From a bacterium (GTDB taxonomy: Bacteria; Myxococcota_A; UBA9160; UBA4427): a stretch of 36,259 nt of DNA. The stretch covers positions 1 to 36,259 of the forward strand of contig JANSYR010000012.1 in assembly GCA_024742285.1 (NCBI GenBank). Reading direction: 5' to 3'. The notes under the pieces are model-generated. The model did not search any database. It was not told the DNA's origin and saw only the letters and a list, made by a program, of their open reading frames with translations. The position numbers and the translations under genes were made by a program. Positions 28,042-35,899 of the stretch are shown here, in pieces. Numbering within the stretch: the first letter of the stretch is position 1; every line of letters starts with the position of its first letter.

Positions 28042-28162
28042 CCCGGCGCCGGTTTCGGCGATCGCCTAACCTCGGGATTCCCGCGATGATGCGGGAATCA
28101 TGGAGTCGGGCGTCGCGCGATGGAGATCGCGTCGGGGCCCGCTCCGCCAGCAGGAGCCAACC

Positions 28163-28639
28163 ATGCTTGCAGTCGGGAGCGATGCGCCCGACTTCTCGGC
28201 GCAGGACCAGGACGGGAACACCGTCTCGCTGTCCTCGCTGGCCGGGAAGTGGGTCGCCATGTGGTGGTATCCGAAGGCCTCGACGCCGGGTTGAACGCGT
28301 CAGGGCCACGGGTTCCGTGAGCAGAAGGACGCGTATGAAGGAGCGAACGCCGTCGTGATCGGCGTCTCCTTCGATTCGGTGGCGGACCAGAAGACGTTCG
28401 CCGAGAGCGAGGGCTTCCCCTATCCGCTCCTGTCCGATCCGGACAAGGCGATGGGAGCGGCCTACGATGCTTGTCGCCAGGAGGGCGAGAAGTACTTCGA
28501 GGCCGGGATTCCGAGGCGGATCAGCTACCTGATCAGCCCGGACGGCAAGGTCGCGAAGGCCTACGACGTCGAGAACGATGGACTCGACCTCGATGGTCAC
28601 GCTGCGGCGGTCCTCGCCGACATCCGGGCGGGGAGCTGA
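28163..28639 (+). CDS. Selenocysteine-containing peroxiredoxin (PrxQ/BCP-like), TGA at codon 44
   Basis: The frame starts at an ATG at 28163 (AGGAG eight bases upstream) and runs to TGA at 28637-28639, with one in-frame TGA at 28292-28294. Reading that TGA as selenocysteine gives 158 residues. The site lies in PKASTPG-U-TRQ, exactly where PrxQ/BCP proteins have the peroxidatic cysteine (TPGCT). Upstream VGSDAPDFSAQDQDG and LAGKWVAMWWYPK, and downstream GVSFDSVADQKTFAE, FPYPLLSDPD and YLISPDGKVAKAY, are normal peroxiredoxin. The PrxQ resolving cysteine five residues later is a His (H49). A SECIS-like hairpin follows the TGA. It should reduce peroxides; without Sec machinery it would be a broken gene. 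No sel genes are in the window. Confidence 0.85.
28292..28334 (+). promoter_or_regulatory. SECIS-like hairpin immediately after the in-frame TGA
   Basis: Directly after TGA (28292-28294), ACGCGTC (28295-28301) pairs perfectly with GACGCGT (28328-28334). Inside, GC (28305-28306) pairs with GC (28321-28322), A320 is bulged, and CACGG (28307-28311) pairs with CCGTG (28315-28319) around a G-U-U apical loop. The loop lies 17 bases after the TGA, close to the 18 of the E. coli fdhF SECIS, and carries the G-U that SelB recognises there. The fold is drawn by hand. Confidence 0.7.
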
Positions 28640-28670: not shown

Positions 28671-28715
28671 AAACGAAGACGCCCGGAGGATCGATCCTCC
28701 GGGCGTCGTTCGTTT
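28671..28715. terminator. Bidirectional intrinsic terminator
   Basis: A perfect 30-base palindrome at 28678-28707 (half GACGCCCGGAGGATC) is extended by AAACGAA on the left and TTCGTTT on the right, with a single unpaired G at 28708. It lies between the convergent selenoprotein gene (stop 28639) and the minus-strand exported-protein gene (stop 28732). A-rich and T-rich flanks make it usable in both directions. Confidence 0.85.
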
Positions 28716-30284: not shown

Positions 30285-30389
30285 GACGTGGCCTCCGGGG
30301 TCCGGTCGTGCCCGCTCACAGCGTGGCCTCCGGGGTCCGGTCGTGCCCGCTCACAGCGTGGCCTCCGGGGTCCGGTCGTGCCCGCTCAC
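30281..30389 (-). other. Chain of three 12-codon mini-ORFs linking the thiolase-like and DUF35 genes
   Basis: On the minus strand the reading frames GTG...TGA at 30389-30351, 30354-30316 and 30319-30281 encode MSGHDRTPEATL, the same again, and MSGHDRTPEATS. Each GTG overlaps the previous stop in GTGA: the first overlaps the thiolase-like stop, and the last stop overlaps the DUF35 GTG. Each start has GGAGG seven bases upstream. The sequence is exact; whether ribosomes translate them is not known. Confidence 0.6.
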
Positions 30390-30402
30390 AGCGTGGCCTC
30401 CG
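30288..30402. repeat. Tandem array of three perfect 35-bp repeats plus a 10-base partial copy
   Basis: Exact copies at 30288-30322, 30323-30357 and 30358-30392, each beginning GTGGCCTCCGGGGTCC and ending CGCTCACAGC, then a 10-base partial copy at 30393-30402 inside the thiolase-like gene. Each unit contains, on the minus strand, the GGAGG, the GTG and the TGA of a mini-ORF. The array lies across the 3' end of the thiolase-like gene and the leader of the DUF35 gene, and appears to be a duplication of that junction. Confidence 0.97.
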
Positions 30403-31573
30403 AGCCGAAGATCGAGTTGGTGGCGGGCACGACCATCGGGCCCGAGTTCACGAAGGCGACGTCCGCCCCTTCCACGGGATTGGGCGACGTGCCGCGAATC
30501 TGCCGGACGGCTTCGATGTTCAGCTCGAGGCCGTGCATGTAGCACTCGGCGAGGTTGCCGCCGCTCGTGTTGAGCGGCAGCTTGCCCTTGGGCGCGATCA
30601 GGTTCTCGAAGGCGATCACTTCGTTGGCGTTCTCGTAGGTGCAGAAGCCGTGCTCGATCAGGCTCATCACGACGCCGCCCGTGAAGTTCTCGTAGCTCTG
30701 GACCACGTCGACGTCCCCCGGTCCGAGCTCGGCCATCGAGAAGAGGTCGGGGGCGACCGTCTTGAAGCTCGACGTCGCATAGTCGGGGTTGTTGTGTCCA
30801 CCGGCGCCCGCGCGGTACTCCGCGCCCTGCGCCGCGCCGAGCAGGTAGACCGGCTTCTGCTTGAGGTCCTTCGCGCGATCGGCGGGGACGAGTATCAACG
30901 CGGCGGCGCCGTCGTTCTCGAGACAACAGTCGAAGAGGCGGAAGGGCTCGGTGATCCAGCGCGAGTTGTCGTAGCCCTCCTCGTCGAGGGGGCGCCCGCG
31001 CATCACGGCGCGAGGGTTGTTCTGGGCGTGGTGGTACGAGGCCATCGAGACCGCGCGCAAGGTGCTGCGCGAGATCCCGTGCTCGTGCATCAGCCGCGTG
31101 GTCCGCATCGCGAACATCTGCGCCGGCGACATCACGCCGTACGGGATGGACGTCGCATAGGAGCCGGTGATCGCCGTCGGGTAGTGTGCGCCCGATCCGA
31201 AGCGCGCGCCTTGCCCCTGCGCGAGTCCTCGGTAGACGACGACGCAATCCGCCACGCCGGCGTGGATCGCCATCGCGGCATTGCCGATCGCGCCGGAGCC
31301 GCCGCCGCCCCCGCCTCCCCAGACCATGTTCGCGAAGCGGAGCGACTTCATGCCGAGGGCCGCTGCGACGCGGTCGGCCGGATTCTTGTCGTCGGCGTAC
31401 GAAGCGATCCCGTCGATCTCGCGCGGGTCGATCCCGGCGTCTTCCGCGGCGGCGAGGATCGCCTCGAGCGTCAGCTTGAACTGCGCGTCCGGCGACTGCC
31501 CGTGCTTGTAGTAGGTCGTCTCGCCGATCCCGGCGACCGCGACCTGGCCGCGCATCGTTCGCTTCGAAGGCAT
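30386..31573 (-). CDS. Thiolase-like protein (Ltp2/SCP2 type), probable DUF35 partner
   Basis: 395 residues from the ATG at 31573; a TTG six codons upstream is also open. The thiolase fold is recognisable: VAVAGIGETTYYKHG, IDGIASYAD, MFAMRTTRLMHEHG, RPLDEEGYDNSRWITEPFRLFDCC (spread), NTSGGNLAECYMHGLE. The segment where thiolases carry the nucleophilic cysteine (NxNCxxGS) reads MVWGGGGGGGSG (83-94), with no cysteine. Ltp2-type aldolases also lack it, so a retro-aldolase or related C-C lyase with the downstream DUF35 protein is more likely than thiolysis. The tail SEATL resembles the repeated PEATL of the array. Confidence 0.85.
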   Translation of the reverse strand: MPSKRTMRGQVAVAGIGETTYYKHGQSPDAQFKLTLEAILAAAEDAGIDPREIDGIASYADDKNPADRVAAALGMKSLRFANMVWGGGGGGGSGAIGNAAMAIHAGVADCVVVYRGLAQGQGARFGSGAHYPTAITGSYATSIPYGVMSPAQMFAMRTTRLMHEHGISRSTLRAVSMASYHHAQNNPRAVMRGRPLDEEGYDNSRWITEPFRLFDCCLENDGAAALILVPADRAKDLKQKPVYLLGAAQGAEYRAGAGGHNNPDYATSSFKTVAPDLFSMAELGPGDVDVVQSYENFTGGVVMSLIEHGFCTYENANEVIAFENLIAPKGKLPLNTSGGNLAECYMHGLELNIEAVRQIRGTSPNPVEGADVAFVNSGPMVVPATNSIFGSEATL

Positions 31574-31651
31574 CGCCCGCTCTCCCTGCAAGGGTGGCTC
31601 CGAGCGCCGACGATACGTGGACGTCGAAGCGCTCTCAACCGCAAGCCGCGA

Positions 31652-32077
31652 CTAGGGAAGGCAGGGGGTCGTGCCCGCGCAGGCGAGACCGGAGGGGCCG
31701 GGGGCGTCGCCCGTCTGGAAATAGAAGAAGAAGACACCGAAGTCGGCGGTCGTGGTCGCGCCGTTCGCATCCGGATCGACGCAGGCGCAGACCTCCGGCG
31801 TGACGCTCACGAACGTGCCCGTGAAACACTCGAAGAAGATGCCGAAGTCGGCGGTCGTGGTCCCGCCGTCGTTGTTGTAGTCCGCGTCGCAGGCGTCCCC
31901 GAAGCCGTCCGGATCGCAGTCGAGCTGGTTCGACGCTTCGTTGGGCCCGTTCGCGGTCGTCAGGCAGTTGTCGTACGCGTCGGGGACGAGGTCGGAGTCC
32001 TGGTCGCTGACGCTTCCCGCGAACGCGGGCGACGCGACGAGGAAGACGAGGAAAGCGAGGAGGGGTCGTATCGGCAT
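31652..32077 (-). CDS. Exported protein with calcium-binding type repeats
   Basis: 141 residues. The signal peptide is MPIRPLLAFLVFLVASPAFA (1-20). Then comes a thrombospondin-type-3-like acidic stretch (DQDSDLVPDAYDNC, LDCDPDGFGDACDADYNNDGG). Two similar segments follow, GGTTTADFGIFFECF (71-85) and GATTTADFGVFFFYF (106-120), each preceded by a D/N-rich loop (DYNND and DPDAN). The pattern recalls dockerin or EF-hand-like pairs that bind calcium outside the cell. No enzyme domain is fused to it. Start ATG at 32077. It is divergent from the molybdenum hydroxylase operon across 157 bases. Confidence 0.75.
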   Translation of the reverse strand: MPIRPLLAFLVFLVASPAFAGSVSDQDSDLVPDAYDNCLTTANGPNEASNQLDCDPDGFGDACDADYNNDGGTTTADFGIFFECFTGTFVSVTPEVCACVDPDANGATTTADFGVFFFYFQTGDAPGPSGLACAGTTPCLP

Positions 32078-32234
32078 GTGTCCATTGACGCCCGGGCGGC
32101 CCGCGAGGTCAAGCGAATTCTCGCGGTGAAGCGGATTCGGTTCACGAAATGCGCCCGAGAGAGCCCAGAGACGGCGTTGTGGGTCGACCCCAGAACGCGC
32201 CATAATCGAGCTTTCCGATCCGAAGGGAGATCCC

Positions 32235-33107
32235 GTGTCCGCACCCGTGTCCCGGTTCGAAGCGCCGACGGAGGTCGACGCAGCCGTCGCGCTGCTCGCC
32301 GGAGAAGAGGGCGCTCGCGTGCTCTCCGGCGGAACGGATCTTCTGGTCCAGATGCGGCTCGGCGCCGGTGCGCCGCCGCTCTTCGTCGACGTCAAGCGCA
32401 TCCCTCGGCTCTCCGCGGTGCAGCTCGACTCGAAGGGGCTCCGGATCGGGGCCGCCGTACCCGCCGCGGAGATCTACGAGAACGAGTCGATCCGATCGCT
32501 CTGGCCCGGACTCGCCGAGGCGACCGACCTGATCGGCTCCACGCAGATCCAGGGGCGCGCGACCTGGTCCGGCAATCTCTGCAACGCGTCCCCCGCCGCG
32601 GACTCGGTTCCGGCGCTGATCGCCTGTGGCGCGACCGCGGTGATCGCGGGGCCCTCCGGCGAGCGTCGGGTCGCGGTCGAGGACTTCACGACCGGCCCCG
32701 GCAAGACCGTCCTCGAACGCGGGGAGCTGGTCGTCGAGTTCGAGGTGCCGGCTCCGGCACCGCACGCGAGCGATGCCTATCTCCGTCTGATCCCGCGAAC
32801 CGAGATGGACATCGCCGTCGTCGGCGCGGGTGTCGCACTCACCCTGGACGACGCAGGAACCGTGACCGAAGCGCGCGTCGCGCTCGGCGCCGTCGCGCCC
32901 ACCGCGATCCGCGTCCCGGAAGCCGAGGCGGCGCTCGTGGGCTCCTCCGTCGACGACGATGCGCTGACCGCGGCCTCCGCGGCGGCGACGGCAGCGGCGA
33001 GCCCGATCGACGACAAGCGGGGCACGGTCGCCTACCGGAAGAAGATCGCGGGGGTCCTCACGACCCGCGCAGCGAAGATCGCAGCCGAGCGGGCGCGGGC
33101 GCGTTAG
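32235..33107 (+). CDS. Molybdenum hydroxylase FAD-binding subunit (CoxM-like)
   Basis: 290 residues, normal for the FAD subunit of the xanthine dehydrogenase / CO dehydrogenase family. Seen: FEAPTEVDAAVALLAG, VLSGGTDLLVQMRLG (FAD-binding loop), STQIQGRATWSGNLCNASPAAD, and the C-terminal part RTEMDIAVVGAGVALTL. It passes electrons from the iron-sulfur subunit to the acceptor. Start is GTG at 32235 with GGGAG upstream. It heads a three-gene operon: FAD, 2Fe-2S, molybdopterin. Confidence 0.93.
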   Translation: MSAPVSRFEAPTEVDAAVALLAGEEGARVLSGGTDLLVQMRLGAGAPPLFVDVKRIPRLSAVQLDSKGLRIGAAVPAAEIYENESIRSLWPGLAEATDLIGSTQIQGRATWSGNLCNASPAADSVPALIACGATAVIAGPSGERRVAVEDFTTGPGKTVLERGELVVEFEVPAPAPHASDAYLRLIPRTEMDIAVVGAGVALTLDDAGTVTEARVALGAVAPTAIRVPEAEAALVGSSVDDDALTAASAAATAAASPIDDKRGTVAYRKKIAGVLTTRAAKIAAERARAR

Positions 33108-33143
33108 GCGCGTCCCGCACGGACAAGGAAGAAGAGAGACGAC

Positions 33144-33626
33144 GTGGCGAAGATTCGAGTCGAGACGACGATCAACGGCGAAGAGACCGAGTTCCTCTGC
33201 AACGGTCAGGAGAGCCTGCTCGAGGTCCTGAGGGACGGGATCGGCATGACGGGCACGAAAGAAGGCTGCACGACCGGCGACTGTGGTGCCTGCTCCGTCG
33301 TCGTCGACGGACGGCTGGTGCCCTCGTGCCTGGTGCTCGCGGCCGAGGCCCAGGGCCGGAACGTCGAGACGATCGAGGGCGTCGCCGACGGACAGAAGCT
33401 GACGCCGATCCAGCAGCAATTTCTCGAACACGGCGCGCTGCAGTGCGGAATCTGCACGCCCGGATTCATCGTCGCGGCCGAGAAGCTGCTCGAGAAGAAC
33501 CCGGATCCGACGGAGGCCGAGGCGAGGTACTTCCTCGCCGGCAACCTCTGTCGGTGCACCGGTTACGACAAGATCATCAAGGCCGTCCTCGATGCGGCGG
33601 CCGTGATGCGGGAGGAACGGGCATGA
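33144..33626 (+). CDS. Molybdenum hydroxylase [2Fe-2S] subunit (CoxS-like)
   Basis: 160 residues. Cysteines for the plant-type cluster are C42, C47, C50 and C62 (GCTTGDCGAC), and for the second cluster C101, C104, C136 and C138 (CGIC and CRC). The order ferredoxin fold then helical bundle is standard. It relays electrons between the molybdenum site and FAD. Start is GTG at 33144; its TGA overlaps the next ATG by 4 bases. Confidence 0.95.
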   Translation: MAKIRVETTINGEETEFLCNGQESLLEVLRDGIGMTGTKEGCTTGDCGACSVVVDGRLVPSCLVLAAEAQGRNVETIEGVADGQKLTPIQQQFLEHGALQCGICTPGFIVAAEKLLEKNPDPTEAEARYFLAGNLCRCTGYDKIIKAVLDAAAVMREERA

Positions 33627-35899
33627 GCGCAGCTCCGGACACTTCGGATCGCAAGTTCAAGCAGGTCGGCAGCCGACCGATTCGCCACGACGGCCTCGAC
33701 AAGGTCACGGGGCGCGCGCGCTTCGGTGCGGACTTCACGCTGCCCGGAACGCTCCAGGGCGTCTTCGTCCGCAGCCCCCACGCCCACGCGAAGATCCTCG
33801 GGATCGACACGAGCAAGGCGGAGAAGGTGCCGGGCGTGAAGGCGGTGATCACCGCCGCCGACTTCCCGGAACTCCCCATGCACTGGATCACCCAGGGCCC
33901 CGCCGGCGTCGACGCCGGGGCGAACCAGCGCGTGATCCTGGCGAGGGAGAAGGTGCTCTACCACGGCCATGCCTTCGCCGCGGTCGCGGCGGCGACCCGC
34001 GAGATCGCGATCGAGGCGGGCAAGCTGATCGAAGTCGAGTGGGAGGTGCTCCAACCGGTCCTCTCGATCGACCAGGCGCTCGCCGACGGTGCGCCGATCC
34101 TCCACGAAGGGCAGGCGACCGAGGGAATGGGGCCGCCGGTCGAGGGCGATACGAACATCACGAACCAGATCGTCTTCGAGGGCGGCGACCTCGAGGCGGG
34201 CTGGGCCGAGGCCGACGTCGTCGTCGAAGGCGTGTTCGAGACCCCGATGGTCCACCAGGGCTACATCGAGCCCCACGCCTGTCTGGTGAACGCCCGCGAG
34301 GACGGCACGTCCGAGATCTGGTGCGCGACCCAGGGGCCCTTCGGCGTGAAGAACGAGACCGCGACGCTCACCGGGAGCGATCCGGCGTCGGTCAAGGTCA
34401 CGCCCTCCGAGATCGGGGGTGGATTCGGCGGCAAGATTCCGGTCTACCTGGAGCCCGCGGCGCTTCTGCTGTCCCGCAAGGCGGGTCGGCCGGTCAAGAT
34501 GACGATGACCCGTGAAGAGGTGTTCCGGGGAACCGGGCCGACCTCGGGCTCGAAGACGCACATCAAGATCGGCGCGAAGAGCGATGGGACCCTCGTCGCC
34601 GCCGAGTGTCAGCTCGACTTCGAGGCGGGCTGCTTCCGGGGCTCGCCGGTCGGCGCGGCATGCATGACGACGCTCTCGCCCTACGTGATCCCGAACTTCC
34701 GGGTGCTCGGCCGGGACATCGTGCTGAACAAGCCGCGGGTCGCCGCCTACCGAGCGCCGGGCGCCCCGGTCGGTGCCTTCGCCGCGGAGAGCCTGCTCGA
34801 CGAGCTGGCTCGGAAGCTCGGTCGGGATCCGATCGAGTTCCGGCTGCAGAACGCGGTCGAGGAGGGCGATCGCGCGAGCTACGGACCGAAGTTCGGCCCG
34901 ATCGGCTTCAAGGAGACCCTCGAAGCCGCGAAGGCGCATCCGCAGTACAAGGCGGAGCTCGGCGAGCACCAGGGGCGTGGCGTCGCTGCGGGCTTCTGGT
35001 TCAACGCGGGCATGCAGTCGAGCGCGACCGTCAGCGTGAACTCGGACGGCTCCGCCGTCGTGCGCACGGGCAATCCGGACATCGGCGGCAGCCGCGCGAG
35101 CATGGCGCTCATGTGCGCGGAGGAGCTCGGGATCGACGTGACGCGGGTCCGACCGATGGTCGGCGACACCGACTCGGTCGGGTACTGCGATGCGACCGGC
35201 GGCAGCCGCGTGACCTACGCGACGGGCATGGCGGTCATCGACGCGACCCGCCAGGTGATCGATCACCTGCGCGCTCGTGCGGCGACCATGCTCGACGTGG
35301 AGCTCGACAGCATCGAGTGGCAGGACGGGAACGCCGTCGCGGTCAACGGATCCGCGGACAAGGGCTCGCTCTCTCTCGAGGAGATCGCGAAGAAGATGGG
35401 CGCCACGGGCGGTCCGGTCGTCGCGAGCGCTTCGGTCAGCCCGCCGGCGGCGGGGCCGGGCTTCGGCGTGCACGTCTGTGATCTCGAGGTCGATCCGGAG
35501 ACCGGCGTGACGCGGGTGCTGCGCTACCTCGTGGTGCAGGACGCGGGAAAGGCGATCCACCCGACCTACGTCGAAGGGCAGTTCCAGGGGGGTGCCGCGC
35601 AGGGCATCGGTTGGGCGCTCAACGAGGAGTACATCTGGGACGCGGACGGGAAGGTCGAGAACGCCGGCTTCCTCGATTACCGCGTGCCGGTGGCCAGCGA
35701 TCTGCCGATGATCGACACGGTGATCGTCGAGGTGCCGAATCCGCTCCATCCCTACGGTGTGCGTGGCGTCGGGGAGACGCCGATCGTGCCGCCCCTCGGC
35801 GCGGTCGCGAATGCGATGCGCGACGCGACGGGCGTGCGCTTCCATTCGCTGCCGATGTCGCCGCCGCGGGTACTCGAAGCCCTCGAAGAGGCCGACTGA
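33623..35899 (+). CDS. Molybdenum hydroxylase molybdopterin-binding subunit (CoxL-like)
   Basis: 758 residues from the ATG at 33623, GGAGGA eight bases upstream. Seen: RPIRHDGLDKVTGRARFGAD, IGGGFGGK (264-271, cofactor binding), AAYRAPGAP (374-382), and GVGETP with E718, the conserved glutamate base. The loop is not AYxCSFR, which marks true form I CO dehydrogenase, nor AYRGAGR of form II. It is therefore a xanthine dehydrogenase/aldehyde oxidase-type hydroxylase of unknown substrate, not CO oxidation. The enzyme hydroxylates an aldehyde, heterocycle or acyl-CoA using water. A very long open frame upstream, back to about 30308, is a composition effect and not part of this protein. Confidence 0.95.
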   Translation: MSAAPDTSDRKFKQVGSRPIRHDGLDKVTGRARFGADFTLPGTLQGVFVRSPHAHAKILGIDTSKAEKVPGVKAVITAADFPELPMHWITQGPAGVDAGANQRVILAREKVLYHGHAFAAVAAATREIAIEAGKLIEVEWEVLQPVLSIDQALADGAPILHEGQATEGMGPPVEGDTNITNQIVFEGGDLEAGWAEADVVVEGVFETPMVHQGYIEPHACLVNAREDGTSEIWCATQGPFGVKNETATLTGSDPASVKVTPSEIGGGFGGKIPVYLEPAALLLSRKAGRPVKMTMTREEVFRGTGPTSGSKTHIKIGAKSDGTLVAAECQLDFEAGCFRGSPVGAACMTTLSPYVIPNFRVLGRDIVLNKPRVAAYRAPGAPVGAFAAESLLDELARKLGRDPIEFRLQNAVEEGDRASYGPKFGPIGFKETLEAAKAHPQYKAELGEHQGRGVAAGFWFNAGMQSSATVSVNSDGSAVVRTGNPDIGGSRASMALMCAEELGIDVTRVRPMVGDTDSVGYCDATGGSRVTYATGMAVIDATRQVIDHLRARAATMLDVELDSIEWQDGNAVAVNGSADKGSLSLEEIAKKMGATGGPVVASASVSPPAAGPGFGVHVCDLEVDPETGVTRVLRYLVVQDAGKAIHPTYVEGQFQGGAAQGIGWALNEEYIWDADGKVENAGFLDYRVPVASDLPMIDTVIVEVPNPLHPYGVRGVGETPIVPPLGAVANAMRDATGVRFHSLPMSPPRVLEALEEAD

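Follow-up and report, generated by a model that had tools for sequence, protein, structure and literature searches.

A TGA codon interrupts a peroxiredoxin gene at the position of its catalytic cysteine, which raises the question of whether this triplet marks a damaged gene, ends a short product or is read as selenocysteine (Sec). The gene lies in a window of 36,259 nucleotides, meaning the whole stretch of DNA that was analysed (contig JANSYR010000012.1), taken from an assembly of a Myxococcota_A bacterium of 6.5 Mb and 95% completeness (GCA_024742285.1). Based on the analyses described below, we consider it almost certain that the gene encodes a Sec-containing peroxiredoxin of the PrxQ/BCP type, in which UGA44 would be decoded via SelB and a SECIS element and the oxidized selenium would probably be resolved by an external thiol. 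The coordinates of the relevant features are summarized in Table 1.

Table 1. Features of the peroxiredoxin locus, in window coordinates.
Feature	Position	Strand	Basis or detail
Shine-Dalgarno-like AGGAG upstream of the ATG (28163)	28152..28156	+	read directly from the sequence
Predicted PrxQ/BCP-type peroxiredoxin selenoprotein gene	28163..28639	+	158 codons, then a TGA stop; Sec assigned to UGA44
Internal TGA (codon 44) where PrxQ/BCP has its peroxidatic Cys (TPG-U-T)	28292..28294	+	translation, structure alignment
Bacterial-SECIS-like stem-loop starting directly after the TGA	28295..28334	+	folding energy, covariation
Inner stem of the hairpin	28305-28311 with 28315-28322	+	apical loop GUU at 28312-28314, 17 nt after the TGA
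Codon 49, His; resolving Cys (+5) in typical PrxQ/BCP	28307..28309	+	alignment
Terminator-type hairpin downstream of the gene, 13 pairs	28678..28707	+	found on both strands

Translation of 28163-28639 (+) gives MLAVGSDAPDF...WWYPKASTPG*TRQGHGFRE...ADIRAGS* (stops as asterisks) with one internal stop and no frameshift, confirming the earlier note's description of a single frame that is intact from ATG to stop except for the TGA at codon 44. Read through, the protein scores 119 bits against Pfam AhpC-TSA (residues 4-132), and its residues 17-156 align with solved BCP/PrxQ structures. The homology thus continues in frame on both sides of the TGA, and codon 44 stands opposite the catalytic Cys of TPGCT in these structures, both as the note had proposed. 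An AlphaFold model with Cys substituted for Sec was confident throughout (pLDDT 96.4, pTM 0.91). The active-site motif PxxxTxxC/U is present as PKASTPGU together with the conserved Arg, and P37, T41, residue 44 and Arg119 are invariant across 17 sequences, which is consistent with the established chemistry of the family, in which Sec or Cys attacks the peroxide with the help of Thr.

Cys-type PrxQ/BCP proteins such as Xanthomonas BCP (5iph/3gkn) share with the query the fold family, the motif YPKxSTPGxT and the conserved Arg, with a clear sequence match, but the Xanthomonas protein carries Cys in place of Sec44 and the Cys of FCAKQGF where the query has Ala80. Since the query also lacks the resolving Cys at +5 of the Cys-type enzymes, we did not file it as a typical (atypical 2-Cys) PrxQ/BCP. 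Its PRK09437 score of 97.6 bits, below the equivalog cut-off of 140, places it in a divergent PrxQ/BCP subgroup. PrxU from Eubacterium acidaminophilum (cited in PMC9312934) is likewise a peroxiredoxin with a catalytic Sec but belongs to a different and longer subfamily (233 positions); given this length and a score of 49 bits against a cut-off of 270 for NCBIfam NF040737 (PrxU), the query is not a member of that subfamily.

A gene with an internal stop could be a pseudogene, in which a nonsense mutation or a sequencing error hit the Cys codon and the downstream half is decaying, and a single third-position base change is indeed enough to turn TGT or TGC into TGA. However, the identical TGA at codon 44 was found in 25 distinct sequences, the one in the window included, from the genus out to Actinomycetota, and these span several bacterial families as well as Acidimicrobiia contigs. 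The closest loci, in MAGs labelled “Deltaproteobacteria” or Myxococcota, are 92, 84 and 88% identical and carry the TGA at the same codon, as do two Acidimicrobiia/Acidimicrobiales contigs at 57% identity and further homologues in the genus, order, class and phylum. Across homologues, codon 44 is either TGA (n = 25) or TGT/TGC (n = 23), with no other residue or stop, so that the Sec/Cys exchange looked for in the alignment was found, and at this codon only. Among PLSDB plasmids, matches reached less than 60% identity.

Purifying selection also speaks against a decaying gene. The window gene and three close relatives align without indels. In all six pairs, dN/dS after the TGA lies between 0.05 and 0.13; before it, most of the defined values fall within 0.03-0.12, and one pair reaches 0.43, a value based on six changes. 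The low values after the TGA and the lack of indels indicate that the downstream part is translated in frame, and together with the conservation of the TGA in 25 sequences they form a pattern beyond chance. Decay in sister genomes, which the note had named as a possible sign of a broken gene, was absent from the genus: the gene occurs in four of nine genomes, always with the TGA and never decaying (one copy, L031 in G002, is truncated on its 5' side, where the contig ends ahead of residue 15, and is otherwise intact), and the other five have no close copy. The full Sec machinery in the genome and eight other paralogues with the same pattern also speak against a pseudogene or sequencing error, which we regard as very improbable and as refuted by the conservation of the TGA and by dN/dS.

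In the tree, Sec sequences form one group except for a single nested Cys sequence (2 label changes versus 16 in shuffles). This sequence (L040, genome G184, 1501-1884 on the minus strand) shows a hairpin of -10.0 kcal/mol at the SECIS position after its TGC; it probably exchanged Sec for Cys recently, the SECIS-like hairpin being a relic. Two weaker homologues reported with one TGA each (in G121 and G145) were rejected as TGA homologues; they are Cys forms, and the TGA is their normal stop.

All four components that the note had suggested searching for, selA, selB, selC (tRNA-Sec) and selD, are present in the same genome, spread over separate contigs. The tRNA-Sec on contig C13 scored 67.8 bits, above the cut-off, and was independently called by ARAGORN as SeC with anticodon TCA; selB (C1) reached 283.9 bits in an ORF of 655 residues and selA (C4) 522.9 bits. 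The match to selD (259.4 bits) is a Cys-type SelD in a fusion of NADH dehydrogenase (NDH) and SelD, domain names that were assigned by reading the sequence (L102, C16:123000-125500; active site Cys, not Sec). Fusions of selD to an NDH domain have been reported for marine bacteria (PMC2398784). Among the best matches, selA was detected in 14/14 genomes with the TGA form versus 125/178 others (Fisher p 0.012), which is modest evidence, given how widespread selA is among these relatives. One genome with a TPG-TGA-T peroxiredoxin (L098, G063, 85% complete) yielded no selA, most simply owing to an assembly gap.

Several genes of the genome contain an in-frame TGA, as would be seen if the codon had been reassigned genome-wide, for example to Trp or Gly, instead of being read as Sec depending on context. 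Such a reassignment is excluded, since TGA is the terminal stop of the peroxiredoxin gene, of the upstream alpha/beta hydrolase gene and of selA and selB; as a normal terminator of core and neighbouring genes it refutes this alternative, to which we assign even less weight than to a pseudogene. The internal TGAs observed, moreover, sit at catalytic Cys positions, and tRNA-Sec(UCA), selA, selB and selD are all there to serve them.

A context-dependent reading in bacteria calls for a SECIS element, and a candidate hairpin directly follows the TGA. The 42 nt after the codon fold at -20.8 kcal/mol (z -3.84; 0/200 shuffles as stable), compared to z +1.39 for a control of 42 nt at the true stop of the gene. 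Scanned against Rfam, the window gave a tRNA as its sole hit and no SECIS match; therefore, we tested the hairpin by our own covariation analysis. Over the 25 Sec sequences, 82% of the cells of an eight-pair helix are paired, versus 28-48% in slid versions, and the helix shows 15 two-sided changes where 4.1 were expected from shuffles, with a covariation score reached by 0/500 shuffles, counts that are inflated by the near-relatedness of the sequences. Most Cys homologues are without such a hairpin, and 51% of their helix cells are paired; for the inner five pairs the Cys forms reach 65%, versus 31-47% for most slid controls, suggesting that coding constraint on the FRE/FRD motif adds to the pairing. 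The query hairpin fits the straight eight-pair helix of the family only with a bulged A (at the two lowest inner-stem positions), and several Sec homologues have a weak or different fold by free energy. The apical loop contains a G in 19/25 Sec sequences and is AUU in six. Bacterial SECIS elements have been described as carrying a small apical loop containing G (PMC1088965), and the loop of the query, with its distance from the TGA, is in keeping with that description.

Termination competes with Sec insertion in bacteria, and the TGA might accordingly act as a regulated stop, the real product being a peptide of 43 residues, a C-terminal fragment made by re-initiation, or both, with Sec readthrough minor or absent; a downstream GTG ORF of 94 aa (28355-28639) would be available for the fragment. 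Such a fragment, however, would lack both the catalytic residue and the N-terminal portion of the thioredoxin fold; selection does not break off at the TGA, and the hairpin is positioned as in bacterial SECIS elements. We thus consider a regulated stop highly unlikely, if slightly less so than a pseudogene. Decoding of UGA44 as Sec is the reading we prefer: these sequence comparisons strongly support selenocysteine insertion at this codon, and they support the predicted decoding, fold and catalytic position. That Sec is in fact inserted, that the protein acts as a peroxidase and which reductant serves it are inferred.

In the proposed mechanism, SelB carrying Sec-tRNA(Sec) would decode UGA44 after recruitment by the SECIS stem-loop, which starts immediately after the UGA and lies within the coding sequence. 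The selenolate of Sec44, held in the PxxxTxxU pocket, would then attack the hydroperoxide and become a selenenic acid. With His49 at +5 instead of a resolving Cys, the selenenic acid would probably be resolved from outside by a reducing thiol, be it thioredoxin-like, glutathione-like or another low-molecular-weight thiol, giving a one-selenol cycle. The earlier note took the replacement of the resolving Cys by His to be what a one-site selenium enzyme should show. His49 holds for this lineage, but the rule does not extend to Sec-PrxQ as such: at +5, the Sec sequences have Cys in 5/25 and His in 5/25 cases, and Cys is found there in 5/25 Sec versus 13/23 Cys sequences (Fisher p 0.016, a test that ignores relatedness). 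The one-site reading is hence reasonable for the lineage. Cys104 is conserved only within the genus. That the subclade dropped its resolving Cys and became a one-selenol peroxidase which an external thiol reduces without an intermediate step, and in which His49 may take part near the selenolate, is a tentative proposal that we hold at slightly below even chances, the one basis of the one-selenol step being the absence of Cys at +5. If true, it would amount to glutathione-peroxidase-like chemistry on a PrxQ scaffold.

Selenium-containing members of this family have been on record for about two decades. Among the previously known selenoprotein families of the Sargasso Sea set, the TxxU Sec-Prx (COG1225) ranked second in abundance (PMC1088965); Sec-Prx was also found in deltaproteobacteria, where Anaeromyxobacter has three copies (PMC1794560), and current reviews list it as COG1225 (Bcp) (PMC9312934) or TxxU Prx (PMC13188914). 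Literature searches on Sec with PrxQ and on selenoproteins with Myxococcota returned nothing specific, the known family being filed under COG1225/Prx TxxU. The query agrees with the catalogued Sec-Prx (TxxU, COG1225 (Bcp)/Pfam AhpC-TSA) in fold family, TPGU, peroxidatic Sec and a SECIS 3' of the UGA, whereas its subclade, made up of the window genus, related genera and Acidimicrobiia, is set apart by the motif WWYPKASTPGUT and the missing +5 Cys. There is no known difference in kind, and as the TxxU Sec-Prx has already been described, the gene adds no new kind of system. Several comparisons within the lineage can help to date Sec-to-Cys exchange and to establish its direction: Sec and Cys forms can be aligned as pairs, the resolving residue is repeatedly present or absent, and one Cys member has retained a SECIS-like hairpin.

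Within its own genome, 9/17 matches to the AhpC/TSA fold, the window gene included, have a TGA in frame, in every case at the position of the catalytic Cys. Three of the nine show TPGU; the other motifs are WUPPC, WUPYC, WUPFC, WUPFT and FGULFC (HFGULFC). The eight further loci (L074, L075, L078, L080, L083, L084, L086, L087) are likely peroxiredoxin-like selenoproteins, one of which, L080, is separated from selB by about 1 kb at most. The genome also encodes a Cys-type PrxQ (L072), and its matches to the formate dehydrogenase family have no internal stop. It appears to be rich in selenoproteins, above all in enzymes with a peroxiredoxin fold. Standard gene calling and annotation would split or drop the window gene, and an antioxidant selenoenzyme would be lost together with eight likely selenoproteins of the same genome.

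Elsewhere in the window, a very long GTG frame (30308-35899, +) matches in its C-terminal part the molybdopterin-binding subunit of xanthine dehydrogenase/aldehyde oxidase. As its N-terminal part of about 1100 residues has no Pfam match, the start probably lies much further downstream, or the frame represents a fusion.
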